DNA of 56,244 nt from a virus: positions 1 through 56,244 of the IMG/VR virus record IMGVR_UViG_3300044527_000109, one strand, 5' to 3'. Below the pieces are notes generated by a model. The model was not told the origin of the DNA and did not search any database. It was given only the letters and a program-made list of their open reading frames with translations. Within the stretch, counting starts at the first letter, position 1; the number at the start of each line of letters is the position of its first letter. Below, piece after piece: positions 91 through 55,347 of the stretch. Position numbers and translations under genes: made by a program.

Positions 91-3000
91 TTATGTGGCT
101 GCCCCTATACCAGTAGCACTATCTCCATCTGCTACGTTAGGAGTTGTAGATGATGCTATAGCAGATGCTATAGCAGGATATTGGTTAGGTAAATCGTCAA
201 TTTGTGCTATTATTGTTTCCCATTCTTCGATGGCAGCGTAATACTCATCTCTTGCTTCATCTATCGCAGGGTCGCCAGCCGGATAGTTAAACTGCGTAGT
301 TAGGTATGCATCTAGTTTCGCTTCAATGTTTGCTTCAGCCGCTGATCTTTCTTTTGTCAATATATCTGATTCAGCGATATAATCTCTTCCCTGTTGTTCG
401 ATATCATCGATAGTGCCTTCTGCGGCTTCATCGATTTCACCGAATGTAGGTGTCGGTATTCCAGGATCACCCAATTGACTTGTTACAGCCTCTGTTATAG
501 TGCTTCTATCCGTAGTGTTAAATCCAACACTAGGTATCTTTATTCCCGACCCAGGACTTGCTAATGAAGACATTGCGCTTTGCAACTCGCTGGCGGCGCC
601 TGCAGGTAGACCAGCAGATAATAGACCCTTTAGTCCATCTCCTGAACTTGTTGCTTTGCTTAATAAGTCTGATGCATCTTTTGTGAGATTATCTACCCCA
701 GTCAATGCTTTGTTAAACGATCCTGTTATAGCATCCTTCAATGTTCCAGTACCCGGTAAACTTGGTAATGCCCCAGCGGCTAGATTAGTCACAGCAGAAG
801 CCATTCCTTGTCCACCAGGCAGTTTAGACAAACCACTTGCTACTGAGGAGTTGACTGTTGATATCAATCCTGATTTAATATTACTTGCTGTCTGTGCTAA
901 ACCTTGTGCCGATGTCAAAGAAGATGATAATGATGACGGGCTAGCAAATGCAGTGGCTACTGTAGTTGCAGTTTTTGACACAGCCGATAACTTACCAGTG
1001 ACTGATGCTAAAGCGTTGTTGCCAGTTACCGAACCTAAAATAGTGCTGGCTTTCACTAAACTGTCAGCAACACTACCTGCATTGGGCAATATAGATTTTG
1101 CTTGATTTAACAGACCTCCGGCTGCGCCGCCTACCGCATCAACTAGTCCGCCTTGACCTAAAATAGAAGTACCTGTTTGTGATGCTATCTCATTGATGCT
1201 TGATTCTGAGGCAGCCATAGTACCTTCGGCCGATTTTTTAGCAATCTCAGTAAGATTCTGCGGCACACCTGCTTCTAATGGCTTGAATGAGGCTTTGATT
1301 GCGCTGAATGCAGATGCGGCTACACCTTTGGCTTGATCAATTACAGCATCAAGGCTGGGTGACTTGATGAGTGCATCTACTGAGTTCTGTATTCCACTTA
1401 AAGCCCCATCTAAGCCGTCGCCTATACCTGATGCAAAATTACCAGACGCAATATCTTTGATTACTCCATCTACTTCTCCGGTAACTCCGGCAATGGCTGC
1501 TCCTGGATTGCCTAATGATTTGACTGCATCTAATGTAGAGTTTAATCCGTTTTTAGTTGTGGCAAGAACCATGCCACCTATCTGGCTAGCGGTCTCGGCA
1601 CCGCTTATAGCACCTGCTGATTGCAATGATGTTTGAGCCTGCTGTAATGTCTTACTCAATGACGCACCTTGTGCAGGAACGCTTGATATCAATTGTGGCA
1701 ATGACTGCGCACCTTCTTGACCAGTAAACAAATTCTGTGTCAATGATTTAGAAACATTTCCAGTAGACTGAGCCAATGAATTAACTAATGCCGCGCTTCC
1801 GGGCTTGATAGTTCCCGCTTGCTCAAGTTGAGTTGCTGTCAATGCATATTTACCAACAGCAGCCTGAACACCTTGTGCTGTTTGTCCTATCGCGGTACCT
1901 TGTGTTACTGCACTTGCCAACGGTCCTACAGATGCTTGCTGTGCTACCGATCCTGCTATGGCACTTGTGACATCAGAGTTTAGAGCCTTAGTAGCAGCCG
2001 GTATGCTAGGCACTGATGCTGCCGTAGCCGCGCTTACTGGGTTGTCTAAGGCTGCCGCCGCTGCCTGATTTGTGTTTTGTATGCTAGCAGGAGGTGCTGC
2101 CGGTAAATTGCCATCAGCAGTCACATCTGTTTTAACGTCTACACCTTGACCTGCATTAGACCACGGTGCGTGTGCTGGAGCGCGACTAGTGATGCTTACT
2201 AATTTACCCGGTGCTGCCAAGAATCCTTTTTGCTGATCGAACAATGTGTCTGTATGTAATATCTTATCGATAGCAGGAACTTCTTGTGGCTTAGTACCTG
2301 TCTGACCCGAATTAAGATTAACTTTACTTCCATTTACATAAGCGATAGCACTACTTGCCATGCTAATATCACCACCGCTTTCCATGCTCATAGCACCAGC
2401 AACTTTCGTCAAATGTTTACCTTGAGTAAACACACCATAATCTGTTCCAACTCGACCTTTGAATTCTTTTTCACTATTGAATTGTATATTCTCACCTTGT
2501 AGATTTAGATTCTTAGTGGCATGTATGTTTACGTTGTTGTCTGCGTGTAAGTTTAAGTCACCTTGTGTGCGCAAGTTGATACTATTAGTAGAATAGATAT
2601 CTACTGTGCCCTCTTTACCTAATTCAATATAACTTTGACCATTACTATGAAGTATCATCAATACTTGACCATCATCACTCATCAATATCTGATGACCTAA
2701 CGATGTACGTATTCTTACCAATTGATCACGTCCAATGATATCACCGTCATCCATGACGATGCTGTGACCACCTCTACGTGCTACTACTCGTAATTGAGCA
2801 GCCTTATCACCTTTTAAGTTGTCTGCAATGGTCTTATCATCAAATCCACCTTCATAGATAGGTCTGCCTGGTGTACTTATGCCCCACCCAACTCTTGAAG
2901 GAGTCTCGCGTTGTGAACTTGAACCGATAGGTCCTCGTACTGGATCACGTAATATCCCCTGCTGAAACATGATCGCGGATGTATAACTGTGTATAGGCTT

Positions 3001-3546
3001 AGGTGCGGTCAAGTATTCACTACTGTCTGCTACACCTTTGTTATTTGTATTGATGTTGGTGACCGGTAATCTTAAAGCACCACCGTAACTTTGCGCTTCA
3101 CCTTCGTTTGGTATGATATTATCTGTAGCGCCTATAGCGGGAACCATTTGCAATGCTTCTGGTTCTGGTACACAACCTATGTAATAACCATAGTTCATGT
3201 CACCATCTACGAACACACATAATACAGTAGTGCCTATGTCAGGTGGACTCATCCACATACCATAACTGCTTGGATTAGTCTTATATGTACCTAAATCATC
3301 ATTGCTAGCATCGGGTCTTGTGAAACCAAAGAAAGGACTTAAGAATCTTACCGGTCTCCAGTTGTCTTTATTTTCAGGATCTAAGCCGCTGTTGTCAGTA
3401 ATATATACCATTATCTGACCCATGCGTTTAGGGTCAACATTATCTTTGACTATTGCTAATACAGGCGTCAGACGTGGATTGGCGCCGCCCGAATCAGGGC
3501 TACTGCGCTTTAGCGAGCCTTTCGGCTTGATTATGTCTTCTGCCAT
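91..3546 (-). CDS. gp5: gp5-like baseplate central spike protein with long Ala/Ser-rich extension
   Basis: The 1151-residue product is the likely membrane-piercing spike at the tail tip. Residues about 25-135 match the OB-fold of T4 gp5/VgrG-type hub proteins (LAIVKDNVDPKRMGQIMVYI; a conserved PPDIGTTVLCVFVDGD stretch). Residues about 250-420 contain a region typical of the gp5/VgrG beta-helix (GHSIVMDDG, then repeats such as GDLNLHADNNVNIHATKNLN). No T4-type lysozyme domain is recognisable between them. Residues about 470-1060 are low-complexity Ala/Ser/Gly/Thr, probably coiled or fibrous, and the last ~100 residues are charged. T4 gp5 has 575 residues, so this is twice as long. A GAGAGGA-type ribosome site precedes the ATG. 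It heads a run of minus-strand baseplate genes with short gaps. Confidence 0.85.
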   Translation of the reverse strand: MAEDIIKPKGSLKRSSPDSGGANPRLTPVLAIVKDNVDPKRMGQIMVYITDNSGLDPENKDNWRPVRFLSPFFGFTRPDASNDDLGTYKTNPSSYGMWMSPPDIGTTVLCVFVDGDMNYGYYIGCVPEPEALQMVPAIGATDNIIPNEGEAQSYGGALRLPVTNINTNNKGVADSSEYLTAPKPIHSYTSAIMFQQGILRDPVRGPIGSSSQRETPSRVGWGISTPGRPIYEGGFDDKTIADNLKGDKAAQLRVVARRGGHSIVMDDGDIIGRDQLVRIRTSLGHQILMSDDGQVLMILHSNGQSYIELGKEGTVDIYSTNSINLRTQGDLNLHADNNVNIHATKNLNLQGENIQFNSEKEFKGRVGTDYGVFTQGKHLTKVAGAMSMESGGDISMASSAIAYVNGSKVNLNSGQTGTKPQEVPAIDKILHTDTLFDQQKGFLAAPGKLVSITSRAPAHAPWSNAGQGVDVKTDVTADGNLPAAPPASIQNTNQAAAAALDNPVSAATAASVPSIPAATKALNSDVTSAIAGSVAQQASVGPLASAVTQGTAIGQTAQGVQAAVGKYALTATQLEQAGTIKPGSAALVNSLAQSTGNVSKSLTQNLFTGQEGAQSLPQLISSVPAQGASLSKTLQQAQTSLQSAGAISGAETASQIGGMVLATTKNGLNSTLDAVKSLGNPGAAIAGVTGEVDGVIKDIASGNFASGIGDGLDGALSGIQNSVDALIKSPSLDAVIDQAKGVAASAFSAIKASFKPLEAGVPQNLTEIAKKSAEGTMAASESSINEIASQTGTSILGQGGLVDAVGGAAGGLLNQAKSILPNAGSVADSLVKASTILGSVTGNNALASVTGKLSAVSKTATTVATAFASPSSLSSSLTSAQGLAQTASNIKSGLISTVNSSVASGLSKLPGGQGMASAVTNLAAGALPSLPGTGTLKDAITGSFNKALTGVDNLTKDASDLLSKATSSGDGLKGLLSAGLPAGAASELQSAMSSLASPGSGIKIPSVGFNTTDRSTITEAVTSQLGDPGIPTPTFGEIDEAAEGTIDDIEQQGRDYIAESDILTKERSAAEANIEAKLDAYLTTQFNYPAGDPAIDEARDEYYAAIEEWETIIAQIDDLPNQYPAIASAIASSTTPNVADGDSATGIGAAT

Positions 3547-8955: not shown

Positions 8956-9972
8956 ATGTCTAATTTATTTAAAAAGGCAGCATGTTTTACTGATATACAT
9001 TTTGGTCTTAAGAGCAACAGTCTTGAACATAATCAAGACTGTTCGGACTTTGTCGATTGGTTTATACAGACTGCAAAACAAGAGGGTTGCGAGACTTGCA
9101 TTTTCTTAGGTGATTACAATCACCATCGCGCAAGCATTAATATACATACCATGCAATATGGATTAAGAGCCTTAGAGAGGCTCAATGATGCATTTGATCG
9201 TGTGTATTTTATTCCGGGCAATCACGATCTTTATTATCGTGACCGCAGAGATATTCACAGCGTAGAGTGGGCCAGACATTTACCCAACGTCACAATCGTA
9301 AATGATTGGTTTAGTGAAGGTGATGTTGTTATCGCGCCTTGGCTAGTGGGTGATGATTACAAGAAGTTGGCAAAACTCAGAGGTAAGTATTTGTTCAGCC
9401 ATCTTGAGTTACCGCACTTCTATATGAACGCTATGGTCGAGATGCCAGACGTAGGTGAAGTCAACGATACACATGTTCAACAATTTGAAACTGTGTTTAG
9501 CGGCCACTTTCATAAGCGCCAGGCACGTAAAAACATTTGGTATATAGGAAATGCTTTCCCACATAACTATGCTGATGCAGGTGATGATCAGCGTGGTATG
9601 ATGATACTTGAATGGGGCCAAGACCCAATATTCAAAGCATGGCCTAAACAACCTGTTTTCCGTGTGTATAAGTTAAGCGAGATACTTGACAATCCTCAAG
9701 GACTATTATTACCTCGTAGCAATGTCAGAGTACACTTAGATATCGATATCAGTTATGAAGAAGCCAATTTCATCAAAGAAGAATTGATTCCTAAGCATCA
9801 ATTACGTGAAATGGCACTGATACCCATGAAGTTAGAACAACACCAACTTGATCTTGCTCCGGGTGAGATAAAGTTTGAAAGCGTAGATCAGATCATCATG
9901 GATCAGATTAGCAATATCGAAAGTCAGTTCTACGATCAAAAATTATTGCTAGACATTTATAGAAATCTATGA
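8956..9972 (+). CDS. gp47: gp47-like recombination endonuclease subunit (Mre11/SbcD family)
   Basis: 338 residues from ATG 8956 (a TTG lies one codon upstream). Calcineurin-like metallophosphoesterase motifs appear in order: DIHFG (~residue 13), GDYNHH (~48), GNHDLYY (~90), SHLELPH (~150) and GHFHKRQ (~180). The His/Asp/Asn residues of these motifs bind the two catalytic metals. gp47 pairs with gp46 to form a DNA-end-processing nuclease used in recombination-dependent replication and host DNA breakdown. The stop codon overlaps the start of the next gene (ATGA). In T4-like phages gp47 is normally followed closely by gp46; here two sulfotransferase-like genes separate them. Confidence 0.92.
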   Translation: MSNLFKKAACFTDIHFGLKSNSLEHNQDCSDFVDWFIQTAKQEGCETCIFLGDYNHHRASINIHTMQYGLRALERLNDAFDRVYFIPGNHDLYYRDRRDIHSVEWARHLPNVTIVNDWFSEGDVVIAPWLVGDDYKKLAKLRGKYLFSHLELPHFYMNAMVEMPDVGEVNDTHVQQFETVFSGHFHKRQARKNIWYIGNAFPHNYADAGDDQRGMMILEWGQDPIFKAWPKQPVFRVYKLSEILDNPQGLLLPRSNVRVHLDIDISYEEANFIKEELIPKHQLREMALIPMKLEQHQLDLAPGEIKFESVDQIIMDQISNIESQFYDQKLLLDIYRNL

Positions 9973-10631
9973 AAAAGATACATTATCGTAATATTGGTTT
10001 TCCTAAGACCGGTACAAATTGGTTGTGGGTTCAGTTGATGAAACACCCATTAGTAGATTGTAAGTTAGATGTAATGTTTAAAGAATACAGAGGAAATAGT
10101 ATTGAGTCTTATAAAAAAATATACGAGAAATACGATATCTCTGTAAACATGGATGTTCACGCTTACGATGGGTCATTTCCAAAAGATCATTATATAACAC
10201 CATTAAAGATACATGAACATACTACTCACGTTACTATGATATTGCGTAGTCCATACGAAATCATAAACAGTATGTTCAACATGGATAAGAATAGGAACAT
10301 CAATTTTAAACTGACTCCGGAACAGCATATTGAAAAATGTTATAAAACTTATTCAAATATGAAAAAAATATTCGATGATTGGGAATCTTGCAAGATTCCT
10401 GTCAAATATCTAGCATATGATGATCTTAAATCTGATCCTGAGAATTTTTTCTATGATATATGTGATCACATAGGATTAAAAAGGTACTATAAAGATATCG
10501 GATATAAATTTAAAACAGAGATCAATAGTCCATTAACATTTGACAATCCCATGATTATCAAATATATTAATGAAGGGATCGACTTAATAGAAGAAAAATT
10601 AAATCGTGATTTATCACACTGGAAGCATTAA
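9969..10631 (+). CDS. Sulfotransferase-like protein, copy 1
   Basis: 220 residues. The N-terminal GFPKTGTNWLW (residues 10-20) is the 5'-phosphosulfate-binding loop of PAPS-dependent sulfotransferases (PKTGTTWL). MILRSPYEIINSMFN (~90-105) matches the 3'-phosphate-binding strand/helix (usual form RdP.d...S). Such enzymes move sulfate from PAPS to hydroxyl or amino groups, so the target could be a glycan, lipid or other small molecule; it cannot be read from the sequence. The gene starts inside the gp47 stop (ATGA) and so is likely coupled to it. It is roughly half identical to the following copy across its length (same start MKKIHYRNIG, same end LSHWK). It is an insertion between gp47 and gp46. 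Confidence 0.75.
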   Translation: MKKIHYRNIGFPKTGTNWLWVQLMKHPLVDCKLDVMFKEYRGNSIESYKKIYEKYDISVNMDVHAYDGSFPKDHYITPLKIHEHTTHVTMILRSPYEIINSMFNMDKNRNINFKLTPEQHIEKCYKTYSNMKKIFDDWESCKIPVKYLAYDDLKSDPENFFYDICDHIGLKRYYKDIGYKFKTEINSPLTFDNPMIIKYINEGIDLIEEKLNRDLSHWKH

Positions 10632-10692
10632 TGATTTTACTGAAAAACATAACACTCAGAAAATATTGCTTAACATCTATAGGAATCTATGA
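10631..10692 (+). pseudogene. Duplication scar: remnants of gene 46 start and gene 47 end
   Basis: The spacer between the two sulfotransferase genes reads, from ATG 10631, as MILLKNITLRKYCLTSIG. The true gp46 start is MIKLKNITLRNF-LSIG. In another frame, 10662-10692 (ATTGCTTAACATCTATAGGA...) reads ILLNIYRNL-stop, against LLLDIYRNL-stop at the end of gp47, and then continues into the same ATGAAAAAGAT start. The two similarities meet near 10662. Both genes' edges are therefore present as a fossil, as expected if a block 'gp47 end - sulfotransferase - gp46 start' was duplicated in tandem. The fossil ATG even keeps a one-base stop/start overlap (TAATG) with the gene before it. Confidence 0.75.
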
Positions 10693-11357
10693 AAAAGATT
10701 CACTATAGAAATATAGGATTACCGAAAACAGGTACAAATTGGTTATGGTTACAATTGATGCGTCACCATCAGATCGATGGTAAGATGCGACAGCACCTTA
10801 AAGAATTTAGAGGGAATAATCTAGAGGATTACAAGAAGCGTTATGAAAAGTTTGATATCACAGTAAATCTTGACACTCAACTTTTTCATGATGCAAATGA
10901 CTTCACTAGCCCAGAAAGAATCCACGAACACACTACACATATCACAATGAGTTTAAGAAATCCATATGAGATATTAGATTCTATGTACAATATGTTATGC
11001 AACCATGATCCAAAATATTGTGCTGTAAAGAATTCATACACTGATATGGATAGTGATGCAGTCAAGCGTTATGTAGATTACAAAAGAATTTTTGATTATT
11101 GGAAATCTTGCAAGATAGATATCAAGTATATGTTTTACGATGATATGGTAGACAATCCTGAAAAATATATATTTGATATTTGTGAACACATAGGGATAAA
11201 ACCTTTATATCACGCAAAAATGAACAGAGTGTTTGTAACGGACAAGAAAGATCCCTTAGTGTTTGACAATACAAGCACGATCAAGTATATTAATGAGAAC
11301 ATATCTGCGATAGAAGATAAACTAAAACGCGATCTATCACACTGGAAAAAACAATGA
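10689..11357 (+). CDS. Sulfotransferase-like protein, copy 2
   Basis: 222 residues, paralogous to the preceding gene. GLPKTGTNWLW (10-20) is the PAPS 5'-phosphosulfate loop and MSLRNPYEILDSMYN (~90-105) the 3'-phosphate region. HEHTTHITM precedes that region in both copies. The copies differ most around residues 25-80, where acceptor specificity may lie (inference). Its TGA overlaps the gp46 ATG (ATGA), mirroring the overlap of copy 1 with gp47, so the insertion kept coupling on both sides. Homologues without an obvious P-loop are unlikely given the exact PKTGTNWLW. The substrate is unknown. Confidence 0.75.
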   Translation: MKKIHYRNIGLPKTGTNWLWLQLMRHHQIDGKMRQHLKEFRGNNLEDYKKRYEKFDITVNLDTQLFHDANDFTSPERIHEHTTHITMSLRNPYEILDSMYNMLCNHDPKYCAVKNSYTDMDSDAVKRYVDYKRIFDYWKSCKIDIKYMFYDDMVDNPEKYIFDICEHIGIKPLYHAKMNRVFVTDKKDPLVFDNTSTIKYINENISAIEDKLKRDLSHWKKQ

Positions 11358-14701: not shown

Positions 14702-14713
14702 AACAATTTGTTT

Positions 14714-15138
14714 GGTCGAGGTGCTCGACCCTCCTTGAGATTGTACAGATAGTGCTGTGCCGTCAGATTCTGGAGTAAGCGTAGAGTAACATCTACGGAA
14801 TACCGAGAGGGCAATCGACAGGTTTGCGAACCCTCAATGAGTCTATAATCTACTTTGTCTTGCGATTATAGAACATGCGTTGCCGAGATATGTAACAGTA
14901 TCTCACTACAGTCCCATAAACTTTATAGGGCAACCGGTGGCGATATACAGCGATAGGGCTAGTATGTCGGGGAACAGACGACATGGGTGATAGGGCATGG
15001 CAATGTGCTTTTTCCAATGGTGGTGCTGAATAGCACTACCATGGACTCTAAGGCGGCAATATGATTCCCTTAATAAAAAGATTAAGAAAAATAATAAGTC
15101 TGAGCGAAAGCGAAGACTTAGACAAACGAAGTTTGTCT
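14714..15138 (+). ncRNA. Candidate large structured noncoding RNA, family unknown
   Basis: The 466 nt between the nuclease gene and the minus-strand gp51-like ORF carry no plausible gene but many helices. Perfect or near-perfect stems: 14714-14720/14724-14730 (7 bp); 14743-14748/14755-14760; 14780-14785/14792-14797; 14807-14811/14831-14835; 14842-14850/14864-14872 (9 bp); 14879-14884/14929-14934 enclosing 14885-14890/14899-14904; 14964-14969/14979-14984; 15017-15027/15032-15042 (11 bp, one G-U); 15095-15101/15114-15120 with tandem G-A mismatches and a GAAA tetraloop; and 15121-15127/15131-15137. GATAGGGC or ATAGGGC recurs three times. The GNRA loop favours the plus orientation. Transcription could come by read-through of the recombination operon. 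It resembles no tRNA, tmRNA, RNase P RNA or intron core that I can recognise. The 3' hairpins may instead be terminators. Confidence 0.55.
15069..15138 (-). terminator. Hairpins acting as probable terminator of the gp26/gp51 operon
   Basis: Reading leftward, an 8-bp hairpin (15120-15127/15131-15138) is followed by the 7-bp stem 15095-15101/15114-15120, then by a U-rich run (TTATTTTTCTT) and a third hairpin at 15069-15086. It lies 30 nt past the stop of the gp51-like ORF. The same hairpins could be the 3' end of the structured RNA on the plus strand, although no U-tract follows them there. Confidence 0.45.
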
Positions 15139-15167
15139 TCCCAGATAAAGATTAAAAGATTTGTATA

Positions 15168-15398
15168 TTAGAAAAATGGAAGTTGTGTCTTCTTTGTGAT
15201 TTCCATATGTTCTTCAACTAGTTTGCTTATGGATTCACGTTCAAAAGTAGACATGTTAAGGACATCCTCATAAGTAGCACCACCTCTCATATACCAAGCC
15301 AAGGTGAGTGCTGCCTTACGTATGCCCTCTGTTTCTTTTTCTAAACTTTCAATATACTTCTGTACGGCTTCAGGGCTAGCAGTAAGAAGTTTCAGCCG
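15168..15398 (-). CDS. gp51-like ORF expressed by -1 frameshift from gp26
   Basis: An open frame of 76 codons, RLKLLTASPEAVQKYIES... to TQLPFF-stop, overlaps the end of gp26 in the -1 frame. Upstream the frame is closed 21 codons before (TGA) and holds no ATG. The first internal ATG would leave only about 40 residues. The frame starts exactly where a -1 slip on the T TTT TTC heptamer of gp26 would enter it. The predicted helical, charged sequence (EAVQKYIESLEKETEGIRKA) suits a tail assembly chaperone extension. The position after gp26 is that of gene 51 in T4, although T4 gp51 (about 249 residues) is far longer. A fusion of 273 + 76 residues is predicted. Sequence similarity to gp51 itself was not assessed. 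Confidence 0.65.
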   Translation of the reverse strand, partial: RLKLLTASPEAVQKYIESLEKETEGIRKAALTLAWYMRGGATYEDVLNMSTFERESISKLVEEHMEITKKTQLPFF

Positions 15399-15404
15399 AA
15401 AAAA
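15356..15404 (-). promoter_or_regulatory. Programmed -1 frameshift signal: T TTT TTC and downstream hairpin
   Basis: In gp26 frame the mRNA reads GAT TTT TTC GGC TGA, so the heptamer T TTT TTC (15398-15404) is in the correct phase for tandem slippage and sits one codon before the stop. Seven nt downstream comes a hairpin with 6-bp perfect arms ACTTCT (15385-15390) and AGAAGT (15356-15361), extended by TAC/GTA. Spacing, phase and the long open -1 frame together are the standard architecture of frameshift sites in tail assembly chaperone genes. Confidence 0.7.
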
Positions 15405-16216
15405 TCGCTGGCGTTCAACGTGAAAGGCTGAACGTATTCGTGTGTGCAGTTGTCACACTTGATGTCTAAGGGTTTTAATTCTGTGCTGGCCTTGAGTTGG
15501 GAATTATAATCACGTATAGCAATATAAACACTTCCATCGCAATTATGCAAGAAATCATCAATAAATTGTTTTTCTTCAACTCTAGTAGTGGGCGTATCGA
15601 TATATTCAACAGTTGTTGAAATGATTTTCATTGTAGTTTCCGTAATTACACGTACTGCTTCCTGTGTCTTTTTGTTACGGTCATCATCATTCTCTATCTT
15701 ATCTAAGTCGCCATAAGCCTTTTGTATCTTAAATTGCTCTAACCCGGCCTCATTCATTTCTTTATAAGAAAGAGGTCTAAATTTTATTTTCAGATCATTT
15801 ACTTTTAATTCAGTATCATAGTCGCCGTGCTTTAATTGTGATAGTACGGCTACAAGGTTCAAGCCATAAGTAGATTCATTCTGACATTTAGGGCACTGTG
15901 TGCTGATCTCTAATTGCTGTTGTCCACCTGCGGCTCTGATAGCAATCAATACAGCATCTAAATCGTTTGAATTAATTTGCCATGGATCTTTAATACTTGG
16001 TACGCAACTCTTGATCAAGTCTACAACAGCCGCGCCGTTGAACAATGCGTCAGGAGTTCTTACAGTGATCTCATCGATAGCAGTCATAGGATAAACTGGA
16101 ATCTCACCGTTAGGTGGCATATCTAATACCCCGGGTGAGTATCCTTTGCCCCCGCTAGGTAGTTTAAAATGTACTGCTGGTCTACGGAAATACTGTCTTA
16201 GTGGGTTGTTGTCCAT
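15392..16216 (-). CDS. gp26: gp26-like baseplate hub / tail assembly protein
   Basis: 274 residues, against 208 in T4. The N-terminal part (FKLPSGGKGYSPGVLDM, then a Pro-rich EIPVYPMTAIDEI stretch and TPDALFNGAAVVDLIKSCVP) is the pattern I know from gp26-family proteins of T4-like phages. Two Cys pairs, C108/C111 (CPKC) and C254/C257 (CDNC), probably bind one zinc. gp26 acts in hub assembly with gp51, and its gene lies near the tape measure gene, as tail assembly chaperones do in many phages. The gene ends in a slippery site leading to a longer fusion product. An AATAAATA late motif and a GAGGA ribosome site precede the ATG. Confidence 0.75.
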   Translation of the reverse strand: MDNNPLRQYFRRPAVHFKLPSGGKGYSPGVLDMPPNGEIPVYPMTAIDEITVRTPDALFNGAAVVDLIKSCVPSIKDPWQINSNDLDAVLIAIRAAGGQQQLEISTQCPKCQNESTYGLNLVAVLSQLKHGDYDTELKVNDLKIKFRPLSYKEMNEAGLEQFKIQKAYGDLDKIENDDDRNKKTQEAVRVITETTMKIISTTVEYIDTPTTRVEEKQFIDDFLHNCDGSVYIAIRDYNSQLKASTELKPLDIKCDNCTHEYVQPFTLNASDFFG

Positions 16217-16306: not shown

Positions 16307-19978
<3,672 letters not shown>

Positions 19979-53034: not shown

Positions 53035-55347
53035 ATGAAATTAAACGTTATTAAACGCTCAGGCGCACAAGAACCTCTAGCCGTTGAAAAATGGCAAGCA
53101 CAGGTTGCAAAAATATGTAAAGGTATTGCAGATGTAAGTCAGTCGATGATTGAAATCAAAGCACAGCCCCATTTTTATGATGGTATCACAACTAGAACCA
53201 TAGATGAAATTACATTACGAGCCATAGTAGATTTAATCGACGTAGAAAGTAATCCGGACATCGGTCATACTAATTATCAATATGTGGCTGGCAAACAACG
53301 TCTCAGTATGTTGCGTAAAGATGTTTATGGAAGTTATACACCATTGTCTCTCTACCAGATAGTACAAAAAAATGTAAAGGCTGGACTATACTCGCATGAA
53401 CTACTAGAGTGGTATAGCGAAGACGATTGGAATAAGATGAACGATATGCTAGAGCATGATAAAGATGAGCAGTATAGTTATGCCGCTATTGAGCAACTTA
53501 TTGAAAAATATCTAGTAAAGAATAGAGCAACGAAAGAAACTTATGAAACTCCTCAGATTAGATACATGGTTGCAGCCGCTACTGTGTTCCATAAGGAAGA
53601 ACCTAACACGGCTCGTATGCGTTATATTAAAGAATACTACAACGCGGCTAGTGACGGTCTTTTTACTCTTGCTACTCCTGTACTTGCTGGCCTTGGTACT
53701 CCCACCAAACAGTTTAGTTCTTGCGTACTCATCAGAAGCGACGACGATCTGGACTCAATTTTTGCGTCCGGAGAAATGATGGCAAAGTATGCCAGCAAAC
53801 GAGCTGGTATTGGTTTAGAAATTGGGCGACTACGTCCTTTAGGAAGTCCCATTAGGGGCGGCGAAATCATGCATACAGGTATGATTCCATTTTTAAAGAA
53901 ATGGTTTGGAGACCTGCGTTCATGTTCACAAGGAGGAATTCGCAATGCAAGTGCTACTATCTTTTATCCAATCTGGCATCACCAGTTTGACGACCTTATT
54001 GTACTCAAGAACAACCAAGGAACCGAAGAAACCCGAGTCCGTCATATGGATTATGGGGTTGTGCTTAGTGCTTTCTTCTGGAGAAGATTCAAAAACAAAG
54101 AAAACATAACTTTTTTCGATCCTAACGAAGTCCCAGACTTATATGAGGCTTTCTATTCAGATTGTGCGAAGTTTGAAGAACTTTACGTCAAATATGAGAA
54201 GCGCAAAGATTTGCGTAAGAAAACTATGAATGCTGAAGATGTATTCAAGGGCGGAATTTTAAAGGAGAGAACTGACACGGGTCGTATCTATCTTGTCTTT
54301 ATTGACAATGTGATGAATCAAGGATCCTTTGATCCTGAATATCATCCGATCTATCAGTCAAACTTATGCTGTGAGATACTTTTACCTACTAAACCTTTTA
54401 AGCGTCTTGATGATCCTAGTGGTCGAATCGCACTTTGCACTTTGGGGTCCATTAATTGGGGGGCATTCCGAAACCCTGAGGACATGCGCAGGGCTTGCCG
54501 CATTCTTCAGCGCAGCCTCTGTAATATTCTTGACTACCAGGACTTCCTAAGTATTCAAAGCAAACTAAGCAATGACGAGATTAGTCCATTAGGCATCGGT
54601 GTAACTAATCTAGCATACTGGCATGCCAAGCGCGGCTATAGATATGGAGAGAAAGATGCACTTCAAGATGTTAAAAGTTGGATGGAGCATCAAGCATATT
54701 ATCTGACTGAAGCAACAGTTGAACTTGCTAAAGAACGTGGCAAGTGTGTAGATAGTGATAAGACACGTTATGGTCAAGGTATATTCCCTTGGGAGTTACG
54801 TAGTAAAGGTGTGAACCAACTTGCAGACTTCAATACTGAATTGGATTGGGAACCACTAAGACAAGATATGTTAAAGTATGGGGTACGAAATGCAACGCTT
54901 ATGGCCATCGCTCCTGTTGAGTCTAGTAGCGTGGTCATTAACAGCACTAATGGTATTGAAATGCCCATGTCACTTATCTCAACTAAAGAAAGCAAGGCCG
55001 GGTCTTTTACACAAGTTGTACCCGAATATCAAAAGTTAAAAAATAAATATCAATTGATGTGGGAACAGAAAGACTGTGATGGTTATTTAAAGACTGCCGC
55101 AGTATTAGCCGCATATGTAGATCAAAGTATATCAACCAACACATTCTACAATCCTGCACACTTCACAGATCGTAAAGTTCCAACAACATTAATCGCTAAG
55201 AATTTGATGTTGGCACATAGTTGGGGACTGAAGACATTCTACTACAGTCTCATCAATAAGGCTGGATCAAAATCAGTAGAAGAAAAACCGTTAGCACAAG
55301 AAGTAGCAACATCAGAAGATGATGATTGCGAGGCTTGCAAACTTTAA
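53035..55347 (+). CDS. nrdA: Ribonucleotide reductase class Ia, alpha subunit
   Basis: 770 residues, full length (E. coli NrdA: 761). The N-terminal ~90 residues match the ATP-cone (LNVIKRSGAQEPL, FYDGITTRTIDEI). Active-site elements are present: QFSSCVLI (first redox Cys, ~229), NLCCEI (Asn443-Cys445-Glu447, thiyl radical Cys), ALCTLGS (second Cys, ~468), the YY pair of the radical pathway in KTFYYSL, and the C-terminal CEAC that passes electrons from thioredoxin/glutaredoxin. It reduces ribonucleoside diphosphates for phage DNA synthesis. It is followed 14 nt later by iscU and then nrdB, an unusual interruption of nrdAB. Confidence 0.95.
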   Translation: MKLNVIKRSGAQEPLAVEKWQAQVAKICKGIADVSQSMIEIKAQPHFYDGITTRTIDEITLRAIVDLIDVESNPDIGHTNYQYVAGKQRLSMLRKDVYGSYTPLSLYQIVQKNVKAGLYSHELLEWYSEDDWNKMNDMLEHDKDEQYSYAAIEQLIEKYLVKNRATKETYETPQIRYMVAAATVFHKEEPNTARMRYIKEYYNAASDGLFTLATPVLAGLGTPTKQFSSCVLIRSDDDLDSIFASGEMMAKYASKRAGIGLEIGRLRPLGSPIRGGEIMHTGMIPFLKKWFGDLRSCSQGGIRNASATIFYPIWHHQFDDLIVLKNNQGTEETRVRHMDYGVVLSAFFWRRFKNKENITFFDPNEVPDLYEAFYSDCAKFEELYVKYEKRKDLRKKTMNAEDVFKGGILKERTDTGRIYLVFIDNVMNQGSFDPEYHPIYQSNLCCEILLPTKPFKRLDDPSGRIALCTLGSINWGAFRNPEDMRRACRILQRSLCNILDYQDFLSIQSKLSNDEISPLGIGVTNLAYWHAKRGYRYGEKDALQDVKSWMEHQAYYLTEATVELAKERGKCVDSDKTRYGQGIFPWELRSKGVNQLADFNTELDWEPLRQDMLKYGVRNATLMAIAPVESSSVVINSTNGIEMPMSLISTKESKAGSFTQVVPEYQKLKNKYQLMWEQKDCDGYLKTAAVLAAYVDQSISTNTFYNPAHFTDRKVPTTLIAKNLMLAHSWGLKTFYYSLINKAGSKSVEEKPLAQEVATSEDDDCEACKL

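Follow-up and report, generated by a model that had tools for sequence, protein, structure and literature searches.

The window analyzed here is the whole of a 56,244-nucleotide stretch of viral DNA (IMG/VR record IMGVR_UViG_3300044527_000109). On the minus strand it carries a gp26-like gene whose end overlaps a second open frame in the -1 phase, with a putative tape measure gene alongside on the plus strand:

16307..19978, plus strand: putative tape measure protein with an amidase domain (1223 aa; PF01510, E=1e-18)
15392..16216, minus strand: gp26-like ORF in the 0 frame, proposed short chaperone form (274 aa; PF12322, phrog_150)
15398..15404, minus strand: slippery heptamer T TTT TTC, read directly in the 0-frame phase X XXY YYZ
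15392..15394, minus strand: 0-frame stop codon TGA of the short form, read from the sequence
15168..15404, minus strand: -1 frame C-terminal domain of the proposed long form (78 codons including two Phe codons, then a stop)
15356..15390, minus strand: putative stimulatory hairpin (arms 15390-15385 and 15361-15356), 7 nt past the heptamer

The gp26-like protein was matched over nearly its full length by PF12322 (T4_baseplate, E=2e-16, domain search) and by phrog_150 ('baseplate hub', E=2e-18, profile search). It has two CxxC knuckles and ends in ...ASDFFG*, and the AlphaFold2 model of this short form has a mean pLDDT of 82. A sequence-only reading of this DNA had proposed that the gp26-like ORF and the ORF following it are joined by a -1 programmed frameshift, and its description of the junction was accurate. 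The heptamer lies in phase at 15404-15398, with a single codon (GGC) between it and the TGA, and from the heptamer the -1 frame reads FFRLKLL...LPFF* to 15168, open for 76 codons beyond the two Phe and lacking a usable start. There is no ATG, GTG or TTG in this frame between its upstream stop and 15 codons past the slip site; its earliest start codon is a TTG 102 nt in, with none before codon 35. The modeled -1 domain is helical (pLDDT 71). Judged by sequence, the short and long forms share an N-terminal part and correspond to a single gene whose -1 extension is conserved.

Among the main ORFs of the window (15,959 codons), T TTT TTC occurs in phase only twice, one of these being the gp26 site, and Phe-Phe pairs are mostly written TTC-TTT (9 of 13). 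The second in-phase heptamer, at codon 359 of a ribonucleotide-reductase-like ORF (53035-55347, plus strand) and far from its stop, probably has no function; a heptamer by itself is therefore no evidence. We compared gp26 junctions across IMG/VR relatives with 38-99% identity to gp26, which were picked by gp26 similarity and not by the presence of the heptamer. Conservation of the heptamer and the overlapping frame, which the sequence-only reading had named as a check, was found throughout: TTTTTTC is in phase at 79/79 distinct junctions, one codon from the stop in 69 and four codons from it in the other 10. The codon before it is GAT, AGT or AAT, such that the residue varies and the final T is invariant. 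Farther from the window, and leaving T4 aside, 15/15 named phages keep the heptamer too (junctions read directly); there it is TTTTTTC in 12 and TTTTTTT in Cr30, phiM12 and HTVC008M, lies 0-4 codons ahead of the gp26 stop, and follows CAT, TAT or AAT as well.

The hairpin noticed past the slip site is present in the window, with six perfect pairs, a 7-nt spacer and an energy of -10.8 kcal/mol. This energy is unremarkable alone (z of -2.0 over 54 nt and +0.2 over 94 nt), and we discarded single-sequence energy as weak evidence and used covariation instead. RNAalifold recovered the identical helix in the consensus fold of 62 relatives that have the one-codon layout, and 95.9% of hairpin cells were paired, compared to 36-61% when one arm was slid by 1-3 columns. 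Both sides had changed in 13 cells (1.8 +/- 1.2 in shuffles), involving three pairs with compensatory changes of GC to AU, UA to CG, and CG to UA. The slip site of the window clade is thus followed by a structure that covaries, its 7-nt spacer lying within the 5-9 nt expected of a stimulatory element. Outside this clade the hairpin is an average tendency (mean z of -1.2, compared to -0.3 in control stretches), and several distant phages show no hairpin past the heptamer when folding energies are compared with control stretches.

Past the gp26 stop, the -1 extension runs for 75 or 72 codons and is unbroken in relatives, one being ended by the end of its contig. Differences in the -1 domain are 0.41, 0.25 and 0.62 at first, second and third codon positions, and dN is 0.26-0.64, with synonymous sites mostly saturated; from the third-position excess of changes and the low dN, we conclude that the -1 ORF is under purifying selection. 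By tblastn, the domain has homologues in Atu_ph07 (E 1e-10) and Phosso (E 3e-9), and in both phages their overlap with gp26 falls at the heptamer. Profile comparison of the window-clade -1 domain by hhalign gave 99.7% against the -1 domains of Atu_ph07/Phosso and 98% against those of 121Q, GAP32, Vibrio 2.275 and PA5oct. Matches were weak against the T4 gp51 tail (77%, E 2e-5, 33 columns) and the cyanophage tail (24-41%). The -1 domain of the cyanophage/KVP40 group matched the T4 gp51 tail strongly (97.9%).

The corresponding T4 genes are separate, as the sequence-only reading had it; they are not consecutive but divergent, with gene 26 on the minus strand and gene 51 on the plus strand. PF12322 matches both T4 proteins (9e-64 for gp26 and 4e-52 for gp51), and on the 282 positions of phrog_150, T4 gp51 spans 13-280 and T4 gp26 spans 14-235. 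To avoid circularity, we built a test profile only from frameshift fusions of phages that are not T4-type. T4 gp26 aligns with this profile as far as the slip-site FF and no further (hmmsearch, hhalign), whereas T4 gp51 aligns past the slip site (hmmsearch; hhalign 98.9%), so gp26 corresponds to the short form and gp51 to the long one. Compared directly by hhalign, the two T4 proteins gave 99.5%. T4 gp51 is a gp26 paralogue with an added C-terminal domain; the frameshift product therefore matches gp51 as a whole, and the 76-codon ORF matches only its tail. The second ORF of the window is thereby ruled out as a complete gp51. The ORF does lie at the gp51 position, as had been claimed, but it is the counterpart of the gp51 C-terminal domain and not gp51 itself. 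Since homology to this domain is weak for the window clade and strong for cyanophages, the name gp51 for the second part in the window rests on position and a weak match.

T4 gp26 reads GAG TTC TTT GAG near its end (EFFELL) and has no slippery site; at the junctions read, the heptamer is absent in T4 and its five duplicated relatives. In a tree of the gp26/gp51 N-domain, the T4-type gp26 and gp51 copies group together, beside KVP40/Aeh1, which is suggestive of a duplication within Straboviridae in a tree with long branches and some weak supports. The two genes are divergent in T4 and in the Acinetobacter, Krischvirus, Aeromonas 31 and phiP4-3 phages, whereas in the RB43 stretch (1501-3187) gp51, gp26 and gp25 follow one another on the same strand, giving two arrangements after duplication.

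Whole-record searches of 16 phages with phrog_150 and phrog_634 found two full copies in T4 alone. The same overlap, always in the -1 frame, is present in 15 named phages with one gp26 copy each, spanning jumbo phages (the layout was found in Atu_ph07, 121Q, GAP32 and PA5oct, among others), cyanophages, KVP40, Aeh1, Cr30, phiM12 and PhiW-14, and a U UUU UUY site is nearly invariant across the jumbo phage, cyanophage and KVP40/Aeh1 lineages. In S-PM2, P-SSM2, Syn9, HTVC008M, Cr30, Aeh1, phiM12, KVP40 and PhiW-14, the C-terminal segment comes directly after gp26 and is in the -1 frame. In S-PM2 and KVP40, the gene order is a tube-like gene, gp26, the gp51 tail, and a long ORF. The -1 segment of Aeh1 has no annotation.

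We consider it highly probable that the gene at 16216-15168 (minus strand) is one tail assembly chaperone gene, yielding a short and a long form by -1 programmed frameshifting. The second ORF might instead be an independent small gene, translated from an internal start or by re-initiation past the gp26 stop, with the overlap incidental. Public annotation treats it this way: S-PM2 gp51 begins just after gp26, and KVP40.0327 is likewise listed separately. P-SSM2, S-PM2, KVP40 and 121Q also have an ATG in the -1 frame 2-5 nt past the gp26 stop, so a separate short product is possible in some cyanophages. However, no start comes ahead of codon 35 in the window, and an in-frame start for the second ORF in relatives, which the sequence-only reading had listed as contrary evidence, was not found as a conserved feature: at 54/81 distinct junctions, ATG, GTG and TTG are all absent between the upstream stop and the 15th codon after the slip, and only 1/81 has a start accompanied by an SD-like site. 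A separate gene would not require the in-phase heptamer to be invariant or the hairpin to covary, and its T4-type counterpart, gp51, is a single continuous chain. We rejected a separate second gene on the absence of a conserved start and regard it as very improbable.

Transcriptional slippage on the U6 run, as opposed to ribosomal frameshifting, could also produce the -1 protein. The signal is indeed a homopolymer run, and the T runs of HTVC008M, Cr30 and phiM12 are longer than that of the window. Six bases is a short run for polymerase slippage, however, and ribosomal slippage would account for both the constraint on codon phase and the unvarying 7-nt distance to the hairpin, leaving the transcriptional route with only a slim chance of being correct. 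A chance open frame, with the heptamer a by-product of the conserved Phe-Phe end of gp26, has in our view a negligible probability. FF is found near the end of T4 gp26 too, in the absence of the heptamer, and the window's other copy of the heptamer has no known function. Yet T-TTT-TTC is used at every one of the 79 junctions in spite of the genome's preference for TTC-TTT, and unrelated genomes encode homologues of the -1 domain; these homologues and the selection on the -1 ORF rule out a chance frame.

Under programmed frameshifting, most ribosomes would terminate at 15394-15392 and release the short gp26-like protein of 274 aa. The hairpin 7 nt downstream would slow the ribosome at U UUU UUC, where in a minority of passes both Phe-tRNAs would re-pair one base back, and the slipped ribosome would read on to 15168, yielding a 349-aa fusion that ends in the helical domain. 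We infer the occurrence of slippage, its rate and the chaperone function. On the model of lambda gpG/gpGT, coating of the tape measure protein probably falls to the short form and recruitment of tail-tube subunits, via the extra domain, to the scarce long form; both would be absent from the finished virion. The scarce -1 product of lambda connects the tape measure with the tube protein (PMC5009743), and T4 gp26 and gp51 have been named as hub assembly chaperones (PMC3004832); T4 makes the same pair from two paralogous genes, with 26 encoding the short form and 51 the long one. A lambda-like division of labor is the most economical interpretation for the window phage, and the tail-chaperone assignment made from the letters alone fits both the gpG/gpGT design and the neighbors in S-PM2 and KVP40.

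A Foldseek search of the predicted fold against the PDB gave no match at E <= 0.001, and a profile search of PDB sequences with the chaperone gave no match below E 0.05. Solved tail chaperone structures include PDB 2OB9, 3KLU and 3FGX (PMC9603447). Since no solved structure was matched, we ruled out membership in the lambda-type chaperone fold, and the relation to these chaperones rests on design, not fold. We give slightly less than even weight to a scenario in which the frameshifted gp26 is ancestral in the T4 superfamily and the T4 lineage swapped recoding for duplication; the device for setting a ratio of short to long forms would then have arisen twice, in unrelated proteins, because the fold differs from that of lambda-type chaperones. 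The AlphaFold2 model of the gp26-like protein (15395-16216) also had BFVD matches to uncharacterized proteins of about 450-690 aa from Erwinia phage Special G, Ralstonia RSF1 and RP12, Erwinia phiEaH2, Klebsiella Eowyn, and a siphovirus, which are possibly unrecognized chaperone relatives in other giant phages.

The sequence-only reading had also placed the chaperone gene next to the tape measure gene. The neighbor is there, but it is divergent, on the plus strand, and its assignment is putative, with no tape-measure family match for the ORF at 16307-19978 in domain and profile searches. The PF01510 amidase domain is at the C-terminal end of this protein, which by sequence may carry a tail-borne peptidoglycan hydrolase. 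The window does not show the lambda-type order of tube, G, GT and tape measure on one strand, since its putative tape measure gene lies on the opposite strand, divergently, and the gp26-like gene adjoins no tube gene. Elsewhere in the window, two tandem paralogous ORFs (9969-10631 and 10689-11357, plus strand; MKKIHYRNIG.PKTGTNWLW...), sulfotransferase-like by eye, lie between gp47-like and gp46-like genes.

The 466-nt gap beside the gp26-like gene (14702-15167) contains a candidate structured non-coding RNA of about 370-400 nt. It was matched by nhmmer in most IMG/VR gp26 relatives, typically at E about 1e-45. Folding 40 relatives together gave a consensus of 92 pairs, with 92.9% of cells paired, 452 cells changed on both sides and 38 strongly covarying pairs; the plus strand is favored, with the other strand only slightly worse. 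No conserved ORF was found within the candidate in the alignment of these 40 relatives. The gap has no Rfam 15 match at E <= 1, the candidate has no match in the phages collection, and its core motif has no exact match in GTDB genomes. The core motif is present in at least 120 IMG/VR stretches, and among 80 such stretches a gp26 junction lies within 1 kb of it in 72 of the 73 that were testable. This candidate RNA may be newer than the frameshift finding.

Frameshifted tail assembly chaperones have been reviewed, with the -1 frameshift described as conserved in long-tailed phages except T4 (PMC5009743). Vladimirov, Gautam and Davidson (2022; doi 10.1016/j.virol.2021.11.003) name the tail assembly chaperones of T4-like phages; their work is cited for poly-T frameshift signals in these genes (PMC12846349) and, via PMC10885494, for some T4-like phages that have, in place of frameshifting, a short gene plus a long fusion gene. 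As this much of the design was already published for T4-like phages, the novelty of our finding is modest, and the window gene adds a well-supported case. It broadens the reach of the T4-type frameshifted chaperone, adding a large clade of freshwater and marine phages that have not been cultivated, as well as jumbo phages, whose records list two unrelated hypothetical genes at the chaperone locus. Cyanophage gp51 has been described as only ~20% of the usual length, with the first ~200 residues missing (PMC3037559), marine vibriophage gp51 as also lacking the first ~200 residues, and Aeh1 as lacking gp51 (PMC3037559, 2010). A truncated gp51 is what would be expected if the N-terminus came from gp26 by frameshifting, which may explain why gp51 looked 'truncated' in cyanophages and KVP40 and 'missing' in Aeh1. 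The contrast with T4 provides a testable case in which recoding and gene duplication answer the same dosage problem, and the covarying hairpin is a defined element for reporter tests.

In design, the window gene resembles lambda gpG/gpGT, with a short form, a scarce -1 extended form and a slippery heptamer near the end of a tail-region gene; unlike the solved lambda-type chaperones, with which no fold similarity was detected, its domain is larger and has CxxC knuckles. By description, it also resembles the chaperone gene of Adele, a Pseudomonas phage, and its relatives, which belong to a different myovirus family and have a T-rich slippery site (GTTTTT) near the gene end, an open -1 frame, and a second part misannotated as a separate gene, as here (PMC12846349). 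S-PM2, P-SSM2, Syn9, HTVC008M and KVP40 share the -1 overlap and a heptamer (TTTTTTT in HTVC008M) 0-1 codon from the gp26 stop. Their -1 domain gives a strong match against the T4 gp51 tail and a weak one against the -1 domain of the window clade, and in S-PM2 and KVP40 the long ORF comes next on the same strand, whereas the putative tape measure gene of the window is divergent. With T4 gp26/gp51, the window gene has in common the family (PF12322/phrog_150) and short and long forms sharing an N-terminal part: T4 gp26 ends at FF like the short form of the window, and T4 gp51 runs on past FF. T4 relies on divergent paralogous genes without a slippery site, whereas in the window a single gene would supply both forms.
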